From contig JAJFLH010000011.1 in NCBI GenBank assembly GCA_021772775.1, positions 1-47,453 on the forward strand: 47,453 bases of DNA. The letters are read 5' to 3'. Position numbers and translations under genes: made by a program. The stretch is from Mariprofundus sp. Lineage in GTDB: Bacteria > Pseudomonadota > Zetaproteobacteria > Mariprofundales > Mariprofundaceae. The notes below the pieces were generated by a model. That model saw only the letters and a program-made list of their open reading frames with translations. It was not told the DNA's origin and searched no databases. Below, piece after piece: positions 4,902 through 43,393 of the stretch (position 1 is the stretch's first letter; every line of letters begins with the position of its first letter).

Positions 4902-7900
4902 TTAAACGCGTTTACGGCGATACCAGAGTGATGCCATCGCTAGCAGTGCCAGTAGTGGCAACATGGGGTCAAACTTGTTGCTGTTTGTACTAATAGCACA
5001 ACCGCCACCTCCTCCACCGGTAGCAGGGGTTCCTACTGCCACCGGGTCAACAATCACGCCGTTGGCAAGTCCATCAAGATCGAAGGGGCCGCCATCGGTG
5101 AGGCTTAGCTTGACTGAGCCATCGGCGTTGATGCTCCATTTCGATTGCGGGATGGCGGTGTAGTTACCTGCTTTGTCCACCTTATAAACGACAGCATCTG
5201 CCGGCACCGGTTTGCTGAAAAAGAGCGTGGTGTTGGCTGTATCGCCTTTATTGGGCACATGAATCTCATAGCTCACCACACCATCAATCACATTCACATT
5301 GGCCGGTGCAGTGGTCGCTGCCGTAGTGGTTTGATTCTGGATGCTACCTGTGCTGACCACCACACCGACAGGCTTGGTAGTGGTATTGGCCGTAACCTTG
5401 ATGCCCAAAAGCACATTGACATGACCACTGGAATTCGCTGACGCCAAATCCGCTATACCATCACCATTAAAGTCAGCGGATACGAGCGACCTATTCCACC
5501 CCACACCAACATCATATGCACCCGCCGATGCAAAAGAGCCCGGATTAGCGGCATCTGCCAATAGTAGACTGATTTTGCTGGTTGAGGGGAAGTCAGCGAC
5601 AACCAAATCGAGCTTGCCATCGCCATTAAAATCAGCCGATGCAATATCGTTAGGGTAAAATGGAACAGAGGTATTAAAAATTGAATTGTTATCAACCGCC
5701 ACTGGTATAGCCTTTGCAAAGAGCCCCTGCCACACACCGGGAGTATTCAATAGCAGACTCACATTACTGGATTTGCGATTCGCTACAGCCAGATCCACTG
5801 CGCCATCACCGTTAAAATCGCCTGCTGTGATCGCAACAGGGGCATTACCTACAGGATATGTAATTATAGGATATGATGGTTTATCGTTAAAAGAACCCGG
5901 ATTGGCTACATCAGCATGGTATATACTGACACTGTTGGAACCTTCATTCACCACAGCCAGATCGGCCTTGCCATTGCCGGTAAAATCGGCAGATATGATT
6001 GCGCTGGGACTCGCACCAACAGGGTATGTTTTGCCTGACACTAGAAAAGAGCCCGGATTGGCGGCATCAGCTAAAGCAATGACAATGCCAGAATCCTCTA
6101 ATATCGCCAGATCTGCCCTGCCATCGCCATTAAAATCGGCAGATGTAACTATGCCAGTATTGACGCCATAAGCTGACTCTTTCACTATCTTACCCGGCAT
6201 AACAAATGAGCCCACATTAGCTGCATCATTCAAATAAACAGATGTATTAGATTGAACATTTGCATTTGTCAGCCCACCTACAGCGATATCCCGCTTACCA
6301 TCACCATTAAAATCAGCGGATACAACTGAATAACTTGCTTGAGAGGGCGAGATAAACGCCTTTCTTGCTAGAAAAGAGCCCGGATTGGTCGCATCAGCCA
6401 AGAGCACGCTGAAACCAATATCTCCACCTCTAAGATTAGAAGCATTCCCTACGATCAGATCAGCTATCTGATCGCCATTAACATCGGCGGATATGATTGA
6501 AATAGGACGTAAACCAACAACATAGCTCTTCGCGGCAGCAAAACCGGCAAAGCTTATCGGCTTAACAGCGTTGGGATTGATAATGATTGTCCGTGTCATT
6601 TGCGCTGCTGCGATGCCGCCTGCACTCGTAACATCATAGGTAATGGTAAAGGTTCCGGCTGTGGTGGTATCTTTAAACGTGCCGCCTTTAACAATCGAAG
6701 CATCGAGATCACCCAGGTTCAGATCTGTGCCTGTTGCACCCGGATCAGTAAAGACATCACCGATGGCCTTTGTGACCGTGCTTGCACCCTTTAATGTGAT
6801 AGTTGGCGGCGTGGTATCGGCCACCACAATGTTTTGTGTGGCAGTAGATGCATTGCCAGCAGCATCGGTGGCTGTCCAGGTCACCACAGTCGTGCCAATA
6901 GGAAATGCGGTTCCGGTTGTTGTCTGACCCGAAGCATCAGTGGATGTCACAACAGGGGCATTGTTGGTCAATGTTACAGCAGAAACATCGTTTGTTGCCG
7001 GAGGTTTTAAAAACACCGGTGTATTTGTGCCTGTGGCTTCAACCGTTGCCACCTGATTCAAGGGGGCAATCTGAGGAGGCGTGGTGTCGGCCACCACAAT
7101 GTTTTGTGTTGCAGTAGATGTGTTGCCAGAAGTATCGGTGGCTATCCAACTTACGATGGTTGTACCAATAGGAAATGAGGTTACGAGCCCAGGTACTATT
7201 CTGCCAAAAATAAACCACGTAGCCAGCCTATCAGGGGCATCATTGGTCAATCTATCGAGAAAGATTTCGGTCACAGCGGGCTCGATTAAAGATATATCCG
7301 TAAGGTTGCCAGTGGCTTCAACCGTTGCCACCTGATTCAAGGCACCAATCACAGGAGGCGTGGTATCGGCCACCACAATGTTTTCTGTTGTAGTAGATTG
7401 CTTGCCATTAGCATCGGTGGCAGTCCAGATCACCGCCGTGGTTCCAAGAGGAAAACCTGCTGCAGGTGCATTATTGCTCACGATGATCGGCGCTACGCCA
7501 CTGGTTGCAGGATTTGTTAATGTTGGCTGGCTGTTCACAGCCGTTGCTTCAACGGTGACTGCGGCAAGTGGTGCGCCGGTAAAGAGAGGAGCAGCAGGAA
7601 TTGGGATGTTCAAAGCTGCGGAGATCAAGACTTCGGCATTACCTAAACCATCGGTATAACTGATACTTACCGTGATGGCCTTGCCCTCATCGGCGGCAAG
7701 CAGGGTATAGGTTGCGGCAGTTGCATTGGCAATCACAGCAGTACCACGTTTCCATTGGTAGGCGAATGAACCCATGCCATTGGCATCGGCAATGGTATTG
7801 CTGTTTGCAGTCAGTATCTGGCCGCTAGCTGTTGTGCCGGTGATGGCAACATTACCTGTAGGTAGCGCATTAGCATTGCTGACGGCGATGGCGTTGAGGG

Positions 7901-10900
7901 TTAAATCTGCAACATTAAGAGCTGGATCGGCACCTGCCGCCCAATTATCGGCAGCGGCAAGATTATAGGTGGTTCCACCTGTTGAAGTCGTGCCATTATT
8001 ATCGAGCAACAGATTAACCTGGGCTTTATCGGTGGTACTTAACACCATGGTGAATGATGTGCCTGAGCTGATTTCGACATTAGCGGTGTTGGTGAGCAGA
8101 TAGCTGCCGCCAGCCTGACCTCTGAAGGTGAACTTGTTGGCTAGAACATCGCTGAGAATTTCATTGCTCAAAAAGCCAGCTCCTGTCACCACAAGGTTTC
8201 CGTTTGCAGCGTTGTAGCTGGCAGAGGTGATGGTTGGAACGGCTACGTTTTTAACTGTAGTAGTACCCTTCCCTGTAGCGTCAAACCCACTGATCGTACT
8301 ATTCCATCCAGCGCTAACTATAAATGTATAATCGTTACCTTCCGACGAGATTTTGCCGTTCTTATTCATAATTATATTTATTGTGTTTTTGTCAGCAGAA
8401 CTTAGTTGAATGGCAAACTCTGTTTCTGATGTAATATCGACATTAGCGCTATTTGAAAGCACCGTCATTGGATGAACAGATAATTCTGCTACTTTATTTG
8501 CGATAATATCATTATTCGCTCCAGCCAGTTGCACAAAGTGGCTACCAGTTACCGTCAATATGCCGGTCGCGGCATCATAGGTGCCCGATGTGATGGTTGG
8601 CAGTTGACTATTGCTTAGGGTGACAGCATTGGCGATGAGGTCGGCATTGCCTGCTTGCGCCACATTCCAATTGGCTGCGGCGGCGATATTATAGACAACG
8701 CCATCAACGGCTGCTGTACCATTTTTATTCAACAGACCTTCCACATTGATGCGGTCTGCTGCGTTTAAGACAATGGTAAACTGCGTGGCACTATCTATTT
8801 CCACTGCGGTTGAAGTGAGTGTGTAGCTGGCACCACCCTGCCCTGTAAAGCTTAGTTTGGTGGGGTCAATATCATTGGCTGCACCAGCTGTGGCAGCCAG
8901 ATTGGCGGCTGTGACAACCAAGGTATTGCTCAGACCATCATAGATTGCCGAGGTGATGGTAGGCGTGCCCGGCAACACTGCTGCTGTGGCAGCGGATGTG
9001 AGAGACTCAGCCTGATTCAAATCATCGGTATAGGAGATTGTTACAGTGATTGTGTTACCTACATCAGCCTGTACTGGTGTGTAGGTTGAAGCTGTTGCTG
9101 CATTGATCGCAGCAGCAGCGCTAAACCATTGGTAGGTGAATGTTGCATTGGCTGTACCATCGGCATCAACAATCGCGTTGACCGCTGTCAGCTGCTGACC
9201 ACGAATGGCATTGCCGGTGATGGTGACATTGCCTGTTGGAGCATCATTGATATTGGCGACTGCTGCCGTGGCTGTTGAGGCTTTGGATTCAGCAGTTTGC
9301 TGATCATCGGTATAGCTTGCGGTAACAGTGATCGCATTGCCGACATCAGCCTGCAAAAGGGTGTATGTTGAGCCTGTCGCACCATTGCTCCATGTGTAAA
9401 CAACGGTGGAGGTGGTCATGCCATCGACATCGGCAAGGGTATTGTTGGCTGTTAAAACCTGACCCTGCGTTGGCGTGCCGGTGATGGTGACTGTGCCTGT
9501 AGGGGCATCATTAACATTGGCCACAGCTACGGTGGCAGTAGAGACAACGGTTTCAGCCGTGTTACCACCATCGGTATATTTAACAGTGGCGGTAATGGTT
9601 TGACCTACATCGGCCTGAGTCAGGATGTATCGCGATGCGTTGGCACCGACGATATCAACACCAGCACGTTGCCATGAGAAAGAGAAAGCACCCATACCAT
9701 CAATATCGGCAATAGCGGCTCCACTGGCTGCAAGCTGCACATTTTCAGTGGCGGAACCTGTGATGGTGACTGCACCTGTCGGCGCATCATTGGCATTGAG
9801 GACAGTCACGCTGGCACTGGTCAACAGTTCAGCCGTGCCGCCGAGATCGGTATAAGCGACACGTACAAACAGCGCTGAATTCACCTGGCCCTGGGTCGGG
9901 GTATACGTTGCGCTGTTTGCGCCAGTTATGGGGGCGCCAGCTGAAACCCACTGGTAGGTGAATGTGCCGGGCAGACCATCTGCATCGCTAACAGCGCTCA
10001 TATCAGCGGTCTGAATACCGTTCTGGGTTTTATTACCGGTAATCACCACATTACCTGTCGGAGCCACATTTACAGAAGTGGCTGTCACCTGCGTGGTAGC
10101 ATCGGATGCGCCATTGCTGGTGCTGTCGTTGGGAGTGAGGGCGAAATTGGTTACTTTGGTAGCACCGATGGCCACCTGATTGGTAGTTGGGGTAAAAGTA
10201 ATGCCCTGAAGATTGGATTGGGCTGTTGCAATCACTGCTGAATCGACTGTGTAGTTGCCTGCAGTCCCGCTCAAGCCTGTACCGCTTAGGGTACCATTGG
10301 CAGCGGTGTATGTGATGTTCACACTCAGCATATCACCATCAGCATCGGTGAGCGTGACAGCGGCGAACGGAGCAATGGTAGCTGTATCATTGATCGCACC
10401 TGCAGTGACAAACGTGCCGCCCAGTGCAGGCGCACTGTTGGCACCATTGATGACAGCCTGGAAGAAGTTGTCATTGTTCGGGATACCAGTGCCCCTGTTG
10501 TATTGCATGCCAAGGGCATAGTTATCGGCATCATAAACAGGGAAATATCCTGTAGCAGTAATCTCAAAGGTATAGACCTGACCGGAAGTGACATTCACCA
10601 CCGCATCGAGTGGCAAAGCCTGATAAGCGTATGACTGCACAACAGCGGCTGTAACAGCCGTGTTATTCAATACAGCGATGGTTTGTGTGTGCAAGAGCGC
10701 TCCGGCAGTGCCTTCACCGCTATAGATTTTGAGGGCAGCGCCAGTAGATGCAACCGAGGAGGCGATATTGATGCTGGCTAGGGTACCTGTTCTTGGAGCG
10801 GTAAAGGATTGGCCCATTTGATGGCCTGTATCAGAGAACGTGGTGCCGGTTAAAGCTGGCGTATTTTCCACATTCGCACTTCTGGCAACAGAAGTGGCGG

Positions 10901-11762
10901 TGACTTGTGTGGTGGCATTGGCTGCGCCATTAATGGTGCCGTCATTGGGAGTAAGGGTAAATGTTGTGGCCACCGTTAACCCTGTAGTGACCTGACCAGT
11001 AGCTGGGGTAAATACGGCCGCTTGCAGGTTGGTCTGCGCAGTAGCTGGCGTGGCAGCTGTTACAGTGTAGTTACCTGCAGTGCCGGTAATGCCTGTACCT
11101 GCGAGTGTACCGTTAACTGCAGTGTAGGTGATTGCAACTGAGACCTGGTCGCCTGCATTGGCATCGGTGACGGTTACCTGAGCGAAAGGGGTGATCGTGG
11201 CATTATCATTAACTGCACCGTTGGTGGTGAAGGTGCCAGCCAACACTGGCGCTGCATTGGCTGCGCCGGTGGTAGTGAAAGCAGCGCTGGCCATGTTCTG
11301 TGTTGTTTGCAGATTGAATGCCAGATCATCGGCAACAAAATAGGCCGTGTAGGCGGTACCCGGCGTTAGTCCAGTGATGTTCATAACGGTATTGGCAAAT
11401 GGCTGCATGCCGACAACAGCCTTTGCAACGATAGCTACACCGGTATAGTCGAGCTGATCTTTCACCTGCTGCGCTGTAGGTGCAGTGGAGCCCGTGGTCA
11501 CAACAATATAATAGCCATTGCCCTGTTCATCGGTTTGCGCGGTGAAATCAGCCGTGGTATTGGCGATATTCGAGATGGCTGGAGTGCCCTGGTTCACAGG
11601 AGGCGTGACATCTGCACCGACTCCACCACCGCCGCCGCCTGCACCACAAGGCGCTCCGGTGGCTGGATCAACTGCATCAAAAGGGCCACAGACCGCTGAA
11701 GCGATGCTTGCGCCTGAAAAAAGAGTGATGATCAGAAATATAGCTTTATAAAGATGGTGCAT
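4902..11762 (-). CDS. Giant secreted repeat protein with choice-of-anchor U and C-terminal sorting signal
   Basis: This is a 2286-residue exported protein. A signal peptide (about residues 1-24) precedes a fibronectin-III-like segment (~54-157). Two cadherin-like repeats follow (~164-287, ~440-560), flanking a divergent domain, then NDAPTG-type Ig/cadherin repeats (~564-934) and three or more ~115-residue PTITS repeats (~934-1294). Next are HYR domains (~1400-1650), a DUF5011-like domain (~1654-1734) and seven FG-GAP/VCBS repeats with the ADFNGDGxxDL calcium loop (~1755-2100). The end is a choice-of-anchor U domain (~2130-2240), a Gly6-Cys tract, DPMLPLLALLAMASL and a basic tail. That ending resembles the JDVT-CTERM class of rhombosortase-like sorting signals, in which the cysteine would become the processed terminus. 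It is likely a surface adhesin or matrix protein. A divergent LuxR-type HTH gene lies 186 bp upstream. Confidence 0.85.
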   Translation of the reverse strand: MHHLYKAIFLIITLFSGASIASAVCGPFDAVDPATGAPCGAGGGGGGVGADVTPPVNQGTPAISNIANTTADFTAQTDEQGNGYYIVVTTGSTAPTAQQVKDQLDYTGVAIVAKAVVGMQPFANTVMNITGLTPGTAYTAYFVADDLAFNLQTTQNMASAAFTTTGAANAAPVLAGTFTTNGAVNDNATITPFAQVTVTDANAGDQVSVAITYTAVNGTLAGTGITGTAGNYTVTAATPATAQTNLQAAVFTPATGQVTTGLTVATTFTLTPNDGTINGAANATTQVTATSVARSANVENTPALTGTTFSDTGHQMGQSFTAPRTGTLASINIASSVASTGAALKIYSGEGTAGALLHTQTIAVLNNTAVTAAVVQSYAYQALPLDAVVNVTSGQVYTFEITATGYFPVYDADNYALGMQYNRGTGIPNNDNFFQAVINGANSAPALGGTFVTAGAINDTATIAPFAAVTLTDADGDMLSVNITYTAANGTLSGTGLSGTAGNYTVDSAVIATAQSNLQGITFTPTTNQVAIGATKVTNFALTPNDSTSNGASDATTQVTATSVNVAPTGNVVITGNKTQNGIQTADMSAVSDADGLPGTFTYQWVSAGAPITGANSATYTPTQGQVNSALFVRVAYTDLGGTAELLTSASVTVLNANDAPTGAVTITGSATENVQLAASGAAIADIDGMGAFSFSWQRAGVDIVGANASRYILTQADVGQTITATVKYTDGGNTAETVVSTATVAVANVNDAPTGTVTITGTPTQGQVLTANNTLADVDGMTTSTVVYTWSNGATGSTYTLLQADVGNAITVTASYTDDQQTAESKASTATAAVANINDAPTGNVTITGNAIRGQQLTAVNAIVDADGTANATFTYQWFSAAAAINAATASTYTPVQADVGNTITVTISYTDDLNQAESLTSAATAAVLPGTPTITSAIYDGLSNTLVVTAANLAATAGAANDIDPTKLSFTGQGGASYTLTSTAVEIDSATQFTIVLNAADRINVEGLLNKNGTAAVDGVVYNIAAAANWNVAQAGNADLIANAVTLSNSQLPTITSGTYDAATGILTVTGSHFVQLAGANNDIIANKVAELSVHPMTVLSNSANVDITSETEFAIQLSSADKNTINIIMNKNGKISSEGNDYTFIVSAGWNSTISGFDATGKGTTTVKNVAVPTITSASYNAANGNLVVTGAGFLSNEILSDVLANKFTFRGQAGGSYLLTNTANVEISSGTSFTMVLSTTDKAQVNLLLDNNGTTSTGGTTYNLAAADNWAAGADPALNVADLTLNAIAVSNANALPTGNVAITGTTASGQILTANSNTIADANGMGSFAYQWKRGTAVIANATAATYTLLAADEGKAITVSISYTDGLGNAEVLISAALNIPIPAAPLFTGAPLAAVTVEATAVNSQPTLTNPATSGVAPIIVSNNAPAAGFPLGTTAVIWTATDANGKQSTTTENIVVADTTPPVIGALNQVATVEATGNLTDISLIEPAVTEIFLDRLTNDAPDRLATWFIFGRIVPGLVTSFPIGTTIVSWIATDTSGNTSTATQNIVVADTTPPQIAPLNQVATVEATGTNTPVFLKPPATNDVSAVTLTNNAPVVTSTDASGQTTTGTAFPIGTTVVTWTATDAAGNASTATQNIVVADTTPPTITLKGASTVTKAIGDVFTDPGATGTDLNLGDLDASIVKGGTFKDTTTAGTFTITYDVTSAGGIAAAQMTRTIIINPNAVKPISFAGFAAAKSYVVGLRPISIISADVNGDQIADLIVGNASNLRGGDIGFSVLLADATNPGSFLARKAFISPSQASYSVVSADFNGDGKRDIAVGGLTNANVQSNTSVYLNDAANVGSFVMPGKIVKESAYGVNTGIVTSADFNGDGRADLAILEDSGIVIALADAANPGSFLVSGKTYPVGASPSAIISADFTGNGKADLAVVNEGSNSVSIYHADVANPGSFNDKPSYPIITYPVGNAPVAITAGDFNGDGAVDLAVANRKSSNVSLLLNTPGVWQGLFAKAIPVAVDNNSIFNTSVPFYPNDIASADFNGDGKLDLVVADFPSTSKISLLLADAANPGSFASAGAYDVGVGWNRSLVSADFNGDGIADLASANSSGHVNVLLGIKVTANTTTKPVGVVVSTGSIQNQTTTAATTAPANVNVIDGVVSYEIHVPNKGDTANTTLFFSKPVPADAVVYKVDKAGNYTAIPQSKWSINADGSVKLSLTDGGPFDLDGLANGVIVDPVAVGTPATGGGGGGCAISTNSNKFDPMLPLLALLAMASLWYRRKRV

Positions 11763-11948: not shown

Positions 11949-12221
11949 GTGACAGACGACATAGTGAAAAGAGATACAACTCTGAAGAAACATCTCGATG
12001 CGGTGATGGAGACCTTTCCTCTATCCAGACAGGAGGGGCGCCTTGTACTCGAGCTTGTTTCCGGGGTTTCGCTCAAGGAAGCAGCTCATAACATCGGCAT
12101 TCGCTATGAAACTGCCAGAGGCTATCTGAAATCGATTTTCGCAAAGACCGGCTGTAACAGTCAAGTGACACTGATACTCAAGATTCATCATGATCTTAAA
12201 TTGGACTCACCACACGAATAA
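11949..12221 (+). CDS. Stand-alone LuxR-type helix-turn-helix protein
   Basis: The 90-residue protein starts at a GTG preceded by GAGGAAGA. Residues 23-83 form a LuxR/GerE HTH: FPLSRQEGRLVLELVSGVSL then KEAAHNIGIRYETARGYLKSIFAKTGC. This is closely similar to both HTH domains of the 659-residue regulator at 15341. It has no receiver or ligand domain, so it is a DNA-binding module alone. It is divergent from the giant surface protein gene and may control it; the shared 186-bp intergenic region contains a C8...G5 inverted tract (about 11857-11875). Regulation of the neighbour is inference. Confidence 0.7.
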   Translation: MTDDIVKRDTTLKKHLDAVMETFPLSRQEGRLVLELVSGVSLKEAAHNIGIRYETARGYLKSIFAKTGCNSQVTLILKIHHDLKLDSPHE

Positions 12222-12404: not shown

Positions 12405-12698
12405 TCACTTCTCTCCGAAACGATCCTCATAGTGATGCCAGACTTTTAGAATAGCGAGAGTCTGAGCATGGATAGCATAACGAACTGTATAATTTCCAAA
12501 TACCATATCACGAATAACTTCCGGCTCAGGAGCTGACGCTACAGGGCGACCCATCATGGGCATTTCCTGGAGAGCTTTGATGCGACGAATCAAATCCTGA
12601 GCGATGCGTTGCGCCGAAGCAGGATTTTTTTCAGCGATGAAGCCACGCAAACGTTGTAGATCTTCGACGGCTTCTCGTGTGTAAATAATCTGAACCAT
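12405..12698 (-). CDS. RelE/ParE-family toxin
   Basis: The 97-residue protein has the ParE layout: an N-terminal strand (VQIIYTREAVEDL), two helices (RLRGFIAEKNPASAQRIAQ and LIRRIKALQEMPMMGRP), and a C-terminal sheet (VIRDMVFGNYTVRYAIHAQT, AILKVWHHYEDR). The arginine and final HHYEDRF region match the family. ParE toxins poison gyrase and RelE toxins cleave mRNA on the ribosome; sequence alone does not decide which applies, though length and motifs lean to ParE. The cognate antitoxin gene precedes it by 8 bp. Confidence 0.85.
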   Translation of the reverse strand: MVQIIYTREAVEDLQRLRGFIAEKNPASAQRIAQDLIRRIKALQEMPMMGRPVASAPEPEVIRDMVFGNYTVRYAIHAQTLAILKVWHHYEDRFGEK

Positions 12699-12706
12699 TT
12701 GATGGC

Positions 12707-12979
12707 TTATGAGTCGGTCTTTGGGGCTGCCAATTCACTATCTGAACCCCAACTCTCCATCCAAGAGTGCACGTCATCTCCCGAAACAATTTGTCCGGAA
12801 CGAACGGATTGAAGAGCTTCAAGTGTCTCCTGCCAGCGTTGCTGTTCCTGCTGCTGCTGTTCTATGAACTCTTCAACTGCCTGATTGATAATAGAGCTTT
12901 TGGAACGATGTAAACTAGCTGCCATTTTTTCAAGCTGTAATGAAATTTTCGGCTGAATGCGAACACTGGTGATACTCAT
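12707..12979 (-). CDS. ParD/CopG-like ribbon-helix-helix antitoxin
   Basis: The preferred start is the ATG at 12979, six bases after a full GGAGGT site; a longer frame to 12994 lacks such a site. The 90-residue product begins with an RHH strand and helices (SITSVRIQPKISLQLEKMAA, LHRSKSSIINQAVEEFI). A glutamine-rich coil and an acidic tail (SGDDVHSWMESWGSDSE) that would bind the toxin follow. It forms an antitoxin-first operon with the ParE-like gene downstream and probably autoregulates it. Confidence 0.85.
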   Translation of the reverse strand: MSITSVRIQPKISLQLEKMAASLHRSKSSIINQAVEEFIEQQQQEQQRWQETLEALQSVRSGQIVSGDDVHSWMESWGSDSELAAPKTDS

Positions 12980-13019
12980 GAGGCCACCTCCCAATTACAA
13001 TTACATGCATTGTAATACA

Positions 13020-13522
13020 AAGTATGCGGCCGATCAACAAAAAAGGCTACACGAGGGTGAAGGGTTCACACCACAGGGACTTCCTTCGGTCGCAATCCAG
13101 GACAGAGATTGATATTGATGCTGAATTAAATTCAGCATGACAGGCTGTAGGGCCGTCATTGCGGCCCCCGATACAAGCATTCGAGGGTGACGGATCCATA
13201 CCACGGGCATTTCCTTCGGTCACAATCCAGAGAACAGACGCAGGAGAGCTGGATGCCGTATCCAGTACGGCATGACTGACTGAGGGGCGTCATTGCGGAC
13301 TCGATCCGTAATCCAGAAAGGAAGCGCTGACCTCTGGATGCTGAATCGAGTTCAGCATGACAGATTATAGGTCGTCATTGCGGACTCGATCCGTACCATG
13401 GGCATTTCCTTCGGTCACAATCCAGAAAGGAAGCGCTGACCTCTGGATGCTGAATCAAGTTCAGCATGGCAGATTATAGGTCGTCATTGCGGACTTGATC
13501 CGCAATCCAGCGGAGTTGATCT
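13020..13522. repeat. Cluster of palindromic dispersed repeats
   Basis: About 500 bp without a gene are built from recurring units. One is CTGGATGCTGAATC-AGTTCAGCATG, an imperfect palindrome (13111, 13335, 13444). The second is CGTCATTGCGGACTYGATCCG (13152, 13288, 13373, 13482). The third is GGCATTTCCTTCGGTCACAATCC or a close variant (13072, 13206, 13401). A block of about 83 bases at 13311-13393 recurs at 13420-13502 with a few substitutions, a 109-bp period. The arrangement is that of iterated dispersed palindromes, not a CRISPR array. Confidence 0.8.
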
Positions 13523-13649
13523 TATGGCTAAACAACCAGCAGTGTACATCTTAGCCAGCCAAAAAAATGGCACTTTATATATTGGTGTAAGCAGCAACTT
13601 GGTGAAACGCGTATGGGAACATAAAAACAGTGTAGTTGAAGGGTTTACG

Positions 13650-14533
13650 TGTTAGAAATCATCGCGTTGTTTACACTTTTGTTTCACCATAGAAATACTC
13701 GTAGAGCTTTTCGTATGGAGTCATGCCATCAATTCCCTTGTGAGGTTTGACAGTATTGTAGAAGTTGATGAATCGCAACAGGCTGATCTGTCTTTGCTTG
13801 CGATCTGCAAACACCTCTTTGGTGTGCCACATATCCATCAAGGTTCGTATAACCCGCTCGGCCTTGCCATTGGTCTGCGGTCGATTGACACGGGTGAACT
13901 TCTGCCCAATGCCTTCACCCTTACACAAGGCTACGTAAGCATGGTTCTCGGTTCCCTTGTACTCTTTGCCATTGTCTGAATAACTGTACTCAATCGTGTA
14001 AGGACACTCTTCCAGGACTTGCTGAAGAAATGCAGCAGAGCTGTACTGCGTTTTGTCTGGATAAATACCTGCATACAGTTCACGCGAAAAGTCATCTATA
14101 GCAACAAACAGGTACTCCCTTGGCCTTGAAGTCTCCTCGCCCTTGAGAAGCGGCAATCGTTTTGTATCAAAGTGAACAAGCTCTCCGGGATAAGCCTTGT
14201 TGTAACGTCTGGCTTCCTGCTTTCGCTTTTCCTCAAGCTTCTTTTCAATCTTAGCCAGTCGCTTCAGTCCAAACTTCAGAGCCTTAAAGCGATTGTTAAC
14301 ACTACGGCGCGGGACAAACTCCTGCTTCCTGGCACGAGCCAATGCTTTATAAATTGTGGGACGTGATACCCGGTAATGAGTGGCCAAAACAGAGACTTTC
14401 CAGTCACCCGTTTGCCATAGTCGCCATATCTCTTGCCGATCAAGCGGCGTTAACCTGATTCTCTTGTGAATTACCATGTCTACAAAATCTCCTCATTACT
14501 GAAATTCTGTAAACAACGCGTTCAATTCCTACA
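13650..14533 (-). mobile_element. IS481-type insertion sequence with 7-bp target duplication
   Basis: The 884-bp element starts TGTTAGAAATCATCGCG and its other end, read inversely, is TGTAGGAATTGAACGCG; both continue into GTTGTTTACA, giving ~26-bp imperfect inverted repeats that begin with TGT. GTTTACG is present on both flanks (13643-13649 and 14534-14540) as target-site duplication. It carries a single transposase gene. Confidence 0.9.
13671..14477 (-). CDS. IS481-family DDE transposase
   Basis: The 268-residue protein begins with a helix-turn-helix (LTPLDRQEIWRLWQTG, VSVLATHYRVSRPTIYKAL). A basic linker leads to an rve integrase core with the DDE triad: HFDTKRL, YSDNGKEYKG and the glutamate in NGKAERVIRTL. 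PHKGIDGMTPYEKLYEYF is the usual C-terminal motif. All catalytic residues are present and the frame is uninterrupted, so the element could still be active. It is transcribed opposite to the GIY-YIG gene it disrupts. Confidence 0.92.
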   Translation of the reverse strand: MVIHKRIRLTPLDRQEIWRLWQTGDWKVSVLATHYRVSRPTIYKALARARKQEFVPRRSVNNRFKALKFGLKRLAKIEKKLEEKRKQEARRYNKAYPGELVHFDTKRLPLLKGEETSRPREYLFVAIDDFSRELYAGIYPDKTQYSSAAFLQQVLEECPYTIEYSYSDNGKEYKGTENHAYVALCKGEGIGQKFTRVNRPQTNGKAERVIRTLMDMWHTKEVFADRKQRQISLLRFINFYNTVKPHKGIDGMTPYEKLYEYFYGETKV

Positions 14534-14708
14534 GTTTACGCAGAAATATGCTGTACATTATTTGGTTTGGTATGAGCTACATAATGATATGACTGCAGCG
14601 ATTGAAAAAGAGAAAAAACTTAAAAACTGGCACCGTAAGTGGAAGTTGGATTTGATTGAAGAGAGCAATCCTGAATGGAGAGATTTGTATGATGATATTG
14701 TGGGTTAA

Positions 14709-14775
14709 CTGGATGCTGAATCGAGTTCAGCATGACAAACTGTAAGATGACTTTTACAAAGCTAATCCAGGGCAA
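14709..14775. repeat. Palindromic repeat copy after the GIY-YIG gene
   Basis: CTGGATGCTGAATCGAGTTC followed by AGCATGAC starts directly after the GIY-YIG stop codon. It is the same unit as in the 13.0-13.5 kb cluster, so the nuclease gene is bracketed by this repeat family. Confidence 0.7.
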
Positions 14776-15069
14776 TCACGCAACCAGTGGGCGAATACCC
14801 TGTTCGATTTCAGAGCCATGTTCAGCTTTGGCATTCTTCAGATCATAGGCTGTTTGAAGGTTGACCCAGAATTCCGGTGTTGTGTCGAAAAAGCGCGCCA
14901 GCCGGAGTGCTGTGTCTGTGCTGATACCTCGTTTTTCGCGAACCACATCGTTGATGCGCGGAGCCGGAATACTCAGATGGATAGCCAGCTTATTGGCCGA
15001 CATACCCAAAGGCGAAACAGAGCCGCCATTGCTGATTGAGACGGATACTCCACTGCTCATTGCGATCAC
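14776..15069 (-). pseudogene. higA: HigA-type antitoxin, N-terminally truncated
   Basis: From PLGMSANKLAIHLSIPAPRI onward the protein matches HigA/VapI XRE-family antitoxins (helix-turn-helix, then REKRGISTDTALRLARFF and TPEFWVNLQTAYDL). The usual start (HPGEVLREEFLKPLG) is missing. The preceding ~22 codons are HigB DNA read in another frame, so a deletion fused the end of higB to the middle of higA. The DNA-binding helices remain, so a truncated product could still be made, but it is not a normal HigA. Confidence 0.7.
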
Positions 15070-15239
15070 CGCTTAGTTTTTCCAGCCTGTTTCCGGACGG
15101 GGAGCGCAGGTCAATCACATCAGTTGCCGCATCAAGCATTTGTACGTACGTTCAGCCTGTTTACGAAACGCCATGAACTGCGAGGGCATCGCCCTTCAAA
15201 TAGAGCGTGCGTATCCTTGCAGGAAAATGAGCGAATCAT
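14990..15239 (-). pseudogene. higB: HigB-type toxin, frameshifted and truncated
   Basis: Fragments of a RelE-like HigB toxin occur in successive frames. MIRSFSCKDTHALFEGRCPR starts at 15239. QFMAFRKQAERTY follows in a shifted frame around 15150-15190. MLDAATDVIDLRSPSGNRLE then EKLSGDRNEQWSIRLNQQWR lie in a third stretch from 15139 onward. At least two frameshifts separate them, and the C-terminal strand after WRLCF is lost at the junction with higA. The module is dead. Confidence 0.75.
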
Positions 15240-15340
15240 TGTGACATAATAACACGCTCTTGATTTACTCGACTTTTGCACTATACATATTTATTGTGCA
15301 TAAATAATAAAGAGTACTTAACCATCTTTGAGAGGAAATA

Positions 15341-17320
15341 ATGCCTCGAGCGCTTGATCAGATCGATGAGATGCAGGCATCACCTGAAAAATGGGGCGAT
15401 GTGATGGAAACGCTTATTGATTCGATCTTAACGGAGAGCGAATCAACCCGACATAGTATCTCTGAATTCAACAAGGAAATTCTTGAACACCTGAGCCGGA
15501 TGATCCTGCGCGATGAACAGAGTTCCAGCTCGGAAGCAAAGGTCCAGGCGCATAAGAAAACGGTGGAGGCAATGCAGACACCTGCACTGCTACTGGATGC
15601 TGCATCGGGCTCTATGATTGAAGGCAATAGACTTCTACACCACTTTCTCTTTGATGATGCGGCCATCAAACTGAGCAACGATCATTTACAATTTCATATC
15701 CCTGATCAACAGACAAAATTCGAAACACTGCTCCAATGCGCTCAGAAAAGCTCCAGCGTGCAGAAAGACAACTTCTACTTACGCCCAAATGAACAGATCA
15801 ACATCACTGTTTTTCATAGCAGATATCCTGATATAGAACTCTTTACTCTACTGTTTTCCAGAAACCTGCTGAACTCCTCCACAGCTCTCAACATGGTGAA
15901 AAGTGCCTTTGCCCTCTCCAAACAGGAAGCGCAGCTTTCACTGCAGTTAGCATCCGGCAAGGTAATGAAACAGGCAGCCCATGCCATCGGAGTCAGCTAT
16001 GAAACGGCAAGAGGATATCTGAAATCGATCTTTGCCAAGACCGGCTGTAATAACCAGCTGATGCTGGCATTCACCATTCACCATGCATGCCTCCCCCAAC
16101 TGCCTGGTACAGTGCCTACAGCATTGAACTCAGAAGATGCGTTCACACATACGCCTGAGATGATCATAGCCTCGTTCTCACTCTCCAGACAGGAGGCGCG
16201 CCTTACCGTGGAGCTGGTTTCCGGCGCAGCACTGAAACAGGCTGCCCACAGCGTTGGCATCAGCTACGAAACGGCACGGGGATATCTGAAATCAATTTAT
16301 GCCAAAACCAACTGTAACAACCAGACTGAACTGACGCTGAAAATCCAGCATGAGTGTTTGCCCTTAGCTTCAAACACGGAGCAACGACGTTTCATTGAAG
16401 CCAACGTGGATGCAACATACAGGCTAAAAAACGGGCGAGTACTCTCCTATTGTCTCTATGGGCCTGCTGATGGCTACCCTCTGCTTGCCCAGCATACGAT
16501 TTGTGGATCACGCAAACAGATTCATCACAAGCTACAAATGCTTTATGACCACCATATCAAAGTCATTGTGGTGGATCGGCCCGGTTATGGCTCTTCCACC
16601 TATGATGAGAACCGCAAACTTCACGACTGGCCTCGTGACCTTGAACCACTGCTTGAACACCTTGGCATCACTGACTTCGCTCTTCTGGGCTTACAATATG
16701 GCGCGGAATATGCATTGGCCTGCAGTCAATATTTTGGAGAGCGAATCAGTTCCACACAGCTGGTTTCTATAGAGTCGCCACCTGAACTGCTGCCTGCCAA
16801 AATGCCACCTGAATTTTCTCTCATACAAAAAGTCCTGCAATTTGATAAACGTAAGGGGTTTTCAACCATGCTTCTGAAAAACAGGGTTGCGGCCAGGATT
16901 TTTCAACAAACGATTAAGTATTTAGTAATCAAACATATCGATAACCAACAAATATTTTTTCGCCAGTGGGTGATGCTAAAAAGTGCAAAAGATTTTGAAT
17001 TTTGCGAAAGTGAGGCTCGCATGCAGGAGCAGATCAGTATGTGGTGGGTTGCTTATGAGCAGACAGAGGGGTTAATGATGGTAAAAGATTTGCAAATCAA
17101 ATCGAGCCCCTGGTTAATCGATTTTTCAGCCATCAAACAACCGGTGCATATCTGGCACAGCCGATTTGATCCCCAAGCACCGTTCTCACTGATGGAAAAT
17201 ATACTCCCATGTTTTGAGCCTGGGGTGGTGCAGCTGCATGTGATCGAAGATAATTCCGTGATGACCTACTATCATCACATGGAAGAGATCATTGCACAAG
17301 TCAGGCAACAGCTTTCTTAA
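15341..17320 (+). CDS. Double LuxR-HTH regulator fused to a nucleophile-less alpha/beta-hydrolase domain
   Basis: The 659-residue protein starts at an ATG six bases after AGAGGA. Residues ~70-180 look like a PAS-type sensor (TPALLLDAASGSMIEGNRLL). Two LuxR/GerE HTH domains follow in tandem (~188-248 and ~279-337), both with the SYETARGYLKSI recognition region and about 60% identical. Residues ~357-659 form an alpha/beta-hydrolase fold (VVDRPGYGSST, then the nucleophile elbow, then HSRFDPQAPF and a late HH). The elbow reads G450-L-Q452-Y-G, with glutamine where the catalytic serine should be, so classic hydrolysis is not expected. I infer a ligand-sensing role for this domain. The gene end overlaps the sphingomyelinase-like gene. 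Confidence 0.8.
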   Translation: MPRALDQIDEMQASPEKWGDVMETLIDSILTESESTRHSISEFNKEILEHLSRMILRDEQSSSSEAKVQAHKKTVEAMQTPALLLDAASGSMIEGNRLLHHFLFDDAAIKLSNDHLQFHIPDQQTKFETLLQCAQKSSSVQKDNFYLRPNEQINITVFHSRYPDIELFTLLFSRNLLNSSTALNMVKSAFALSKQEAQLSLQLASGKVMKQAAHAIGVSYETARGYLKSIFAKTGCNNQLMLAFTIHHACLPQLPGTVPTALNSEDAFTHTPEMIIASFSLSRQEARLTVELVSGAALKQAAHSVGISYETARGYLKSIYAKTNCNNQTELTLKIQHECLPLASNTEQRRFIEANVDATYRLKNGRVLSYCLYGPADGYPLLAQHTICGSRKQIHHKLQMLYDHHIKVIVVDRPGYGSSTYDENRKLHDWPRDLEPLLEHLGITDFALLGLQYGAEYALACSQYFGERISSTQLVSIESPPELLPAKMPPEFSLIQKVLQFDKRKGFSTMLLKNRVAARIFQQTIKYLVIKHIDNQQIFFRQWVMLKSAKDFEFCESEARMQEQISMWWVAYEQTEGLMMVKDLQIKSSPWLIDFSAIKQPVHIWHSRFDPQAPFSLMENILPCFEPGVVQLHVIEDNSVMTYYHHMEEIIAQVRQQLS

Positions 17321-18503
17321 GCCAGTGAACTATTTAAACATCATCACATCGGCTCTATTGGCATGCTCTCTTAACGCCCACGCATATGCTCAAGCAGGTG
17401 AATTGGAACCGATCAGCCCGCCTTCATTTTGTACAGCCAAGCCCAGTGAGTGCTCCCGGCTTGGAATGATTTCTCAAACAGTGACAAAAAGTAATGGTGA
17501 GAAGAGATGCAATGAAAGCAGCAGTGTATTATGCACAGCCCCTGAAATAACTGCTCGCCCTGACATTGCGGATGCAAACAGGCAGTTCAATGTCTTAAGC
17601 TATAACATCTTTGATCGACCATTTATTATTTCGCATGATGGGCAGCGAGAACGCGTCTGCCGCATTCCAGGGCAGATATTCAGACAAATCGCCTCGAAAA
17701 ACAGCATTGATGCCATTGTGATTCAAGAGGCCTTTACAGAAGGGTGCCGTTCAGGAGCGGAACTACGAACCCTCTTATCTTATTATGGCTTTGCCTATTC
17801 AACAGCGACTATCGACCAAGCTTCGTCGCTTTCCAACGGTGGTCTGTTTATTGCCTCGAAATGGCCAATACAGCTGAGCAAACAAGATGTGTTTGAAAGT
17901 TGCACCGGTAGTGATTGCCTCGCTGCAAAAGGTGCTATCTATGCCCGTATCGATAAAAAAGTGACAGGCAAGGGTTCGACAATGACTTACCATCTATTCG
18001 GCGCACACTTCAACGCCTGGGGTGGTAAAAAGCAGACTAAAGTACGTTTAAAGCAGGCAAAGCAACTGGGCTCATTTATAAACAGACAGCATATACCAAC
18101 TACAGAGGCTGTGATTATTGCAGGGGATTTGAATATTGATAAGCATGATAAAACCAGTGATCAATCAGAGGTAACAGGCGTGCTCAATACCATGCATGCG
18201 GCAATGCCTGTCATCACCGGAGATCAACACTATACAACAAACCCTGTTCACAACCCTTTAGCAATCGAATCTGAGTCAAGTCCGCAATGGTTAGACTATG
18301 TTTTATATTCCAAACAACATTTAAAACCTGTTGAATCTTCCATACAGGCCATAGCTTTACGTACAGCCAAAGAATTTAAAGCTTGCATGAAAGCAAGACT
18401 TCAGCCCTATGATGTTTATCCGGATTCCCAGTGGTGTAAAAAAACAGCCAGCCTCACCGATCTGTCTGATCATTATCCTGTGTTGGGGAGATTCAAATAT
18501 TGA
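17292..18503 (+). CDS. Secreted sphingomyelinase-like phosphodiesterase (EEP superfamily)
   Basis: The product (403 residues from TTG at 17292; 392 from GTG at 17325) has a signal peptide ending near AHAYAQA. The mature part carries the endonuclease/exonuclease/phosphatase fold with bacterial sphingomyelinase C landmarks: LSYNIFDRP (metal-site asparagine), IVIQEAF (metal-binding glutamate), FGAHFNAW (catalytic histidine), IAGDLNID (Asp/Asn pair) and the final LSDHYPVLGRF (general base histidine). Six or more cysteines suggest disulfides in the periplasm or outside. Substrate could be sphingomyelin or another phosphodiester. TTG has a GGAAGAG site four bases upstream; the GTG gives a more usual signal peptide but lacks a site. 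It is translationally coupled to the double-HTH regulator. Confidence 0.8.
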   Translation: MHKSGNSFLKPVNYLNIITSALLACSLNAHAYAQAGELEPISPPSFCTAKPSECSRLGMISQTVTKSNGEKRCNESSSVLCTAPEITARPDIADANRQFNVLSYNIFDRPFIISHDGQRERVCRIPGQIFRQIASKNSIDAIVIQEAFTEGCRSGAELRTLLSYYGFAYSTATIDQASSLSNGGLFIASKWPIQLSKQDVFESCTGSDCLAAKGAIYARIDKKVTGKGSTMTYHLFGAHFNAWGGKKQTKVRLKQAKQLGSFINRQHIPTTEAVIIAGDLNIDKHDKTSDQSEVTGVLNTMHAAMPVITGDQHYTTNPVHNPLAIESESSPQWLDYVLYSKQHLKPVESSIQAIALRTAKEFKACMKARLQPYDVYPDSQWCKKTASLTDLSDHYPVLGRFKY

Positions 18504-42757: not shown

Positions 42758-43393
42758 ATGATGATGAAAAAAGCACTGTTTCATTTAACTGTGTTTATAG
42801 CATTTTTCACTTCTCATTCACTGCATGCTCAAGAGCTTGAAGTATATTATGGCGCTTTGGGTGTCGGTGCTTATACGGTTAATTACACTGAAACCCGTCC
42901 AACAGGAAAAATCGCCATCTCAAACTCAGCCCGCCCTGCTGGCTTTATAAAAGCAGGTGCAGATGCACAGTTTTGGGGTGTAGAACTTCGCCTTGGTCTG
43001 GCTGGAAATGGCAGTAAAAGCTTTCCAGCAGGCACCATAGGTAGCGCCAGCCCTTTCAGCATTGACGTACAAGCCAGCCCATTCTTCTCCTATTTAGGAA
43101 AAGTGCAGTACCCTTTCAACGATGAGTTGAAAGCTTATTTACTATTTGGTGGCACCATGGCTAACTTCTCAATCACGCCATCTGGCAACCCGGTTCTTTT
43201 CAGCACCAGCGCCATAAAAACAGGTTTCACATATGGTATTGGCGCTGCATACAAACCATCCCCAGACTTTTCAGTCGACATCGAATGGATTCAATATTGG
43301 ACAGGTGTCGGCATGGTCGTCTCAGCAGCCGGCTCGTCCAAAGCATCCTTTGGCGGCTTTGGCATGTCAGTGAGTAAATCATTTGACTTTTAA
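42758..43393 (+). CDS. Outer-membrane beta-barrel protein (OmpA-like/porin family)
   Basis: The 211-residue protein has a signal peptide (cleavage after HSLHA). An eight-stranded barrel-like mature part follows, alternating YYGALGVGAYTVNYTETRPT, FWGVELRLGLAGNG, FGGTMANFSITPSG and FTYGIGAAYKPSPDFSVDIEW, and ending in SVSKSFDF with terminal phenylalanine. That is a small OprF/OmpA beta-barrel type without a peptidoglycan-binding domain. It is 37 bp upstream of the giant repeat protein and may share its transcript. Confidence 0.75.
   Translation: MMMKKALFHLTVFIAFFTSHSLHAQELEVYYGALGVGAYTVNYTETRPTGKIAISNSARPAGFIKAGADAQFWGVELRLGLAGNGSKSFPAGTIGSASPFSIDVQASPFFSYLGKVQYPFNDELKAYLLFGGTMANFSITPSGNPVLFSTSAIKTGFTYGIGAAYKPSPDFSVDIEWIQYWTGVGMVVSAAGSSKASFGGFGMSVSKSFDF

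Follow-up and report, generated by a model that had tools for sequence, protein, structure and literature searches.

The established precedent for a protein of the alpha/beta-hydrolase (ABH) fold that gave up catalysis and was turned into a receptor is GID1, the gibberellin receptor, a non-catalytic ABH in which the catalytic His is lost while Ser and Asp are kept (PMC3531792). Other ABH proteins work in signalling with an intact Ser-His-Asp triad, such as RsbQ in Bacillus and KAI2/D14 in plants (PMC3548789). Among regulators that bind DNA, the quorum-sensing receptor VqmA (PDB 7dwm, 6ugl) has a PAS-like sensor followed by a LuxR-type HTH, and the LOV-HTH protein EL222 (PDB 3p7n) likewise places its sensor domain before a LuxR-type HTH. 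Finally, a secreted ceramidase of Pseudomonas aeruginosa is under the control of SphR, a regulator that responds to sphingosine (PMC5150637). Here we describe a regulator of Mariprofundus sp., a marine, iron-oxidising member of the Zetaproteobacteria (Mariprofundaceae), with a PAS-like domain and an HTH in the order seen in VqmA and EL222, a second HTH, and then an ABH domain that has lost its catalytic Ser and His. The window, i.e. the whole stretch of 47,453 nucleotides that we analysed, contains the following features.

15341..17320, forward strand: regulator gene, 659 residues, with a PAS-like domain, two LuxR-type HTHs and an apparently dead ABH domain (open reading frame, ribosome-binding site, Pfam)
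15584..15862, forward strand: PAS-like domain, residues 82-174 (AF2 model, Foldseek)
15899..16084, forward strand: HTH1, about residues 187-248 (Pfam GerE; profile match 190-244)
16160..16354, forward strand: HTH2, about residues 274-338 (Pfam GerE 280-333; profile match 279-337)
16409..17317, forward strand: ABH-like domain, residues 357-659, with Q452 / D610 / V640 at the triad positions (Pfam, PDB 9wlv, alignments)
16694..16696, forward strand: codon of Q452, the nucleophile position (alignments)
17258..17260, forward strand: codon of V640, the catalytic His position (alignments)
17292..18503, forward strand: secreted sphingomyelinase-like protein, starting at TTG 17292 or GTG 17325 (TIGR03395, PDB 2ddr)
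11949..12221, forward strand: stand-alone LuxR-type HTH protein of 90 residues, sister of HTH1 and HTH2 (61-66% identity, tree)
4902..11762, reverse strand: surface protein of 2286 residues with FG-GAP, HYR and Ig-like domains (Pfam)

The reading frame of the regulator starts with an ATG preceded by GAGAGGAA, a ribosome-binding site. The original prediction of two LuxR-type HTHs in one chain was right: GerE (PF00196) passes its curated Pfam cut-off (38.1 bits vs 23.5) in two stretches of the protein. The Pfam cut-off of Abhydrolase_1 is also passed (33.7 bits vs 25.8), though over residues 379-501 only, and the ABH domain matches PDB 9wlv at 3.1e-11. No Pfam PAS match was found in the protein. 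In the AF2 model the PAS-like region has a pLDDT mostly of 66-90 by block and follows predicted N-terminal helices (residues 2-78). The best Foldseek matches of the model are VqmA and EL222, with TM-scores that are low because the alignment covers part of the chain only. The full-length model has moderate to good confidence for the N-terminal helices, the PAS-like domain and both HTHs, and is poor for the ABH part (pLDDT below 50; 33 when this part is modelled by itself). The PAS and HTH part on its own resembles complete ligand- or light-sensing regulators. This speaks for a ligand-sensing regulator in general, and it also lends some weight to the idea that sensing is left to the PAS-like domain, the dead ABH serving as a module for dimerisation or protein docking.

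The nucleophile elbow of the regulator reads G450-L-Q452-Y-G454. As controls we took 22 stand-alone ABHs, 19 from related genomes and three plasmid-borne (Legionella, Methylomagnum and Haloarcula). All 22 align their nucleophile Ser at Q452, their acid at D610 and their His at V640, so that the elbow without serine in a hydrolase fold, as originally described, stands. The acid position is kept (D610), Ser and His are both replaced, and Q452 / D610 / V640 lacks the Ser-acid-His triad of an active serine hydrolase. A shifted alignment putting a serine back at the elbow was looked for across the 22 controls and is ruled out: their Ser, acid and His all fall at the same three positions, and therefore no shifted reading yields one. 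In the AF2 model, residues 446-451 form a strand, 452-454 a turn and 455-464 a helix, which is the pattern of a nucleophile elbow, with low local pLDDT. As judged from these alignments, the ABH domain of the regulator is catalytically dead. Its latter half aligns poorly with enzymes and has a remodelled His loop, a point that also favours a docking module.

Catalysis has been lost not just in this protein but across HTH-fused ABHs, and this breadth is what is new. The Ser-Asp-His triad is intact in only 7 of the 57 HTH-fused ABHs with a readable site, vs 22 of the 22 stand-alone ones (Fisher p about 8e-14; 5e-7 in Mariprofundaceae alone; the compared sequences are related and these values therefore overstate independence). 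Up to 20 of the 74 Mariprofundaceae genomes encode proteins that combine HTH and ABH, a few of the matches being of partial length, and such proteins are found elsewhere in the phylum too. Within Mariprofundaceae, 16 of 23 triads are broken, the window's included: in some proteins Ser is replaced by G, A or Q, and in others Ser is kept but N, F, S, A or Y takes the place of His. All seven intact triads are found in this family, one of them in a paralogue from the genome of the window (G000:C38). In the f14 family (L070-L099), from the same phylum, two HTHs go with an ABH and the triad is broken in 30/30 members, mostly with a hydrophobic residue for His and Asp at the nucleophile position, where Asn, a gap and once Ser also occur. 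We found no relatives in viral contigs and no named f14 members in plasmid sequences. Homologues with an intact GxSxG and shown hydrolase activity were to count against the original prediction, and the sequences go part of the way: seven zetaproteobacterial relatives, the paralogue among them, have Ser-Asp-His, but at 25-29% identity and with putative activity, and the closest relative has Gln. That the same catalytic loss recurs among relatives suggests that the broken enzyme is now a chemical sensor serving secreted and surface proteins encoded nearby.

This closest relative (L022, the same as L034) belongs to another Mariprofundaceae genus and is 47% identical over 212 residues. Contig scans with a single-protein query gave no match, and a two-protein query retrieved L034 together with PAS-HTH proteins. 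The elbow of the relative reads G-Q-Q-F-G and Gln is therefore conserved in this pair; the L034 contig stops short of the acid and His positions. Conservation of Q452, which the original prediction had proposed to survey, holds in this relative; other relatives carry G, A, C, D, N or a gap at this position, and many keep Ser. Such a variety bears on the idea that the protein remains enzymatic, as an unusual hydrolase or lyase acting through D610 or another residue and fused to a regulator. D610 is present, the oxyanion-side motif H385-T-I-x-G-S is retained, and seven relatives have intact triads. ABH enzymes without a Ser nucleophile also exist, e.g. dehalogenases with an Asp nucleophile. Yet the known ABH mechanism leaves no room for a Gln nucleophile, the third position has no His, and the replacements in the relatives are what relaxed catalysis would give and not what one expects of a single new chemistry. 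We regard a surviving enzyme as very improbable.

The two proteins are most alike where the active site used to be. Three stretches of the first half of the ABH domain have 24/44, 27/45 and 23/44 identical residues, vs only 20/104 in the PAS-like region, and the best conserved stretches (GSRKQI, DRPGYG, Q-x-GAEYAL) surround the old site. With Gln in the closest relative and the first half of the ABH more conserved than the PAS-like region, the dead site seems to be under constraint, which argues for a function retained there. This would be odd for a mere spacer, and a PAS-like region so poorly conserved is hardly what one expects of the only sensor, which makes the docking module doubtful, though worth weighing. 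The conservation also speaks against a decaying gene, a functionless fusion product of insertion-rich DNA. The genes for a transposase and for toxin-antitoxin systems between 12405 and 15069 are in line with such decay, as is the lack of any high-identity copy of the protein in all 22 remaining genomes of the genus. However, the frame of 659 residues is fully open behind a good ribosome-binding site, a relative from another genus keeps the active-site region including Gln, and the architecture recurs. Decay has hardly any credence left. A receptor made from the dead ABH remains the likely reading.

HTH1 and HTH2 are identical at 40 of 62 residues and share the recognition-helix segment YETARGYLKSI with the stand-alone HTH protein, whose GerE score in Pfam (20 bits) is under the cut-off. 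The common segment predicts the same DNA site for all three. The original prediction had mentioned neither this protein nor the PAS-like domain before the HTHs nor the loss of His. A recent duplication of the two HTHs is ruled out, with 130/186 nucleotides identical and the same codon used in 26 of the 40 shared residues. Among its Mariprofundaceae relatives the window protein is alone in having two HTHs; all f14 proteins have them (30/30), spaced about 78 residues apart. In a tree of HTHs, built on few columns and with some long branches, the HTHs of the window, the stand-alone HTHs and that of L022 form one group (98/95), and the first and second HTHs of f14 lie in groups apart. A common tandem origin with f14 is not supported by this tree; the tandem therefore probably arose separately. 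That the double-HTH form seems to have more than one origin is likewise new. Upstream of the regulator we found no inverted repeat, and neither convincing inverted repeats nor operator words were shared between the upstream regions of the regulator, the stand-alone HTH gene and the relatives. The main upstream stretch in common, TTGGGGGTATTGCTG, connects both loci that encode a stand-alone HTH.

The gene downstream of the regulator (17292-18503) is co-directional with it. The overlap of the two genes, also part of the original prediction, depends on the start codon: it amounts to 29 nucleotides if TTG at 17292 starts the gene, but becomes a gap of 4 nucleotides if GTG at 17325 does. The product matches TIGR03395 with 110.8 bits (E 8e-32), which misses the equivalog cut-off of 248.2, and PDB 2ddr with an E-value of 2.8e-21. 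It is homologous to sphingomyelin phosphodiesterase, and its substrate is putative. Homologues occur in 3 of the 74 Mariprofundaceae genomes and in two of these, the window genome and G034, they adjoin an HTH-ABH gene. In G034 a regulator, a sphingomyelinase, a neutral ceramidase and a second regulator follow each other on a single strand (L049:9517-16662); the ceramidase is the only one among the 74 genomes and both regulators have Gly at the nucleophile position. The first regulator of the cluster is spread over two frames that overlap (15536-16387 and 14586-15572), owing to a frameshift or to a genuine split. A simple gene-order model gives a chance of about 8e-6 that at least two of three sphingomyelinase homologues adjoin HTH-ABH genes. 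In the phylum sample, three of the five homologues (G027, L139, L140) have no HTH-ABH neighbour. The link between HTH-ABH regulators and sphingolipid-hydrolase genes is non-random. That a sphingolipid product might be the ligand is a guess from this gene order, conceivable but one we would sooner bet against.

Most neighbourhoods of the relatives point to surface or secreted proteins at least as much as to sphingomyelinase. The upstream neighbour is divergent from the regulator in 14 of 17 Mariprofundaceae loci, and a signal peptide, as called by a simple rule, is predicted for this neighbour in 9 of the 17 vs 41 of 238 background ORFs (p=0.0015). These neighbours include lipoproteins (L043, L044, L053) and a lipase with Lipase_bact_N (L042). 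Genes for HYR or Ig-like surface proteins adjoin the regulator or lie near it at L034, L040, L048 and L056, and downstream of it at L054. Maritalea myrionectae has a protein with a LuxR-type HTH and an ABH with Gly at the nucleophile position (L132:4485-6185; WP_117397120.1, labelled 'alpha/beta hydrolase' in RefSeq), and its gene is followed by two HYR-domain genes. Such a genomic context supports a local regulator. Two f14 regulators with dead ABH and double HTH (L070, L091) are divergent from genes for exported proteins with PEP-CTERM-like ends (VPEPATWALM, VPEPSTWALM).

In the window, the surface-protein gene (4902-11762) is divergent from the stand-alone HTH gene and not from the regulator itself, mobile and toxin-antitoxin genes separating the latter two. 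The arrangement recurs in G019, where a stand-alone HTH gene is divergent from a homologous surface-protein gene; the first 570 residues of the two surface proteins are 82% identical. The arrangement, with a stand-alone HTH protein of 90 residues encoded divergently from the large surface-protein gene, is seen in two genomes of the genus (11949-12221 in the window; L039:459-737, reverse strand), and in both TTGGGGGTATTGCTG sits between the two genes. By reading, the insertion-rich region 12405-15069 contains a pair of ParE/RelE-like and ribbon-helix-helix-like genes, an integrase-type transposase, a GIY-YIG-like fragment and a HigA-like antidote. Another HYR-domain surface protein, the second in this genome (43383-47453, forward strand), runs past the end of the window. 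The gene before it (42758-43390) encodes a protein of 211 residues, and relatives of that protein follow HTH-ABH genes immediately on the downstream side in L041 and L047.

We infer a cytoplasmic one-component regulator in which the dead ABH senses a small, perhaps lipid-derived ligand, a reading to which we give a probability of roughly 60%. The architecture, the replacement of Ser and His, the Gln shared with the closest relative, the decay of catalysis across the family and the genomic linkage are observed; the binding of a ligand, its type, the DNA sites and the targets are what we infer. In such a regulator the PAS-like domain and the dead ABH would flank the two HTHs. The old substrate pocket most likely binds a small acyl- or lipid-like ligand without cleaving it. 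Binding, possibly with a signal from the PAS-like domain, might alter how both HTHs sit on DNA. Because the HTHs share their recognition-helix segment, a single chain, acting as a built-in dimer, could fill two similar half-sites. The probable targets are nearby exported functions: the sphingomyelinase-like gene that follows the regulator and, on the upstream side, perhaps the surface-protein locus. More broadly, and only tentatively, HTH-fused ABHs might be a class of bacterial pseudo-hydrolase receptors, comparable to GID1 of plants and shaped by repeated losses of different triad residues, some of which receptors sense the lipid products of neighbouring secreted hydrolases (sphingomyelinase, ceramidase, lipase), with the tandem HTH having evolved at least twice.

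Should the dead ABH prove to be a receptor, many genes annotated simply as hydrolases, such as that of WP_117397120.1, would be regulators. Bacteria would then have a counterpart to the route from enzyme to sensor taken by plant hormone receptors, one in which numerous independent losses could be compared, and sphingolipid breakdown would gain a testable connection to gene control outside pathogens. The architecture is undescribed in the open literature that we searched, most subscription journals being outside that search. Closest in kind are the PAS-HTH-ABH regulators of Mariprofundaceae with a single HTH (L002, L005-L029), which have the domain order and type of neighbourhood of the window protein; unlike it they have one HTH, many retain Ser and lose His alone, and seven have full triads. 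The f14 regulators share with it two HTHs followed by an ABH without intact triad, but their tandem probably has a separate origin. VqmA and EL222 differ in having a single HTH, at the end of the chain, and no ABH. SphR belongs to the AraC family, has no ABH either, and is alike in role only, a role that for our regulator is inferred. RsbQ and KAI2/D14 also signal through an ABH, but with the triad that the window protein has lost. As to GID1, the original analogy with plant receptors is fair in kind, for both are non-catalytic ABHs (PMC3531792), but it does not extend to the residues: GID1 keeps Ser and Asp, whereas the window protein has lost both His and Ser, the latter replaced by Gln. GID1 acts through DELLA proteins; the regulator of Mariprofundus carries its HTHs in the same chain.
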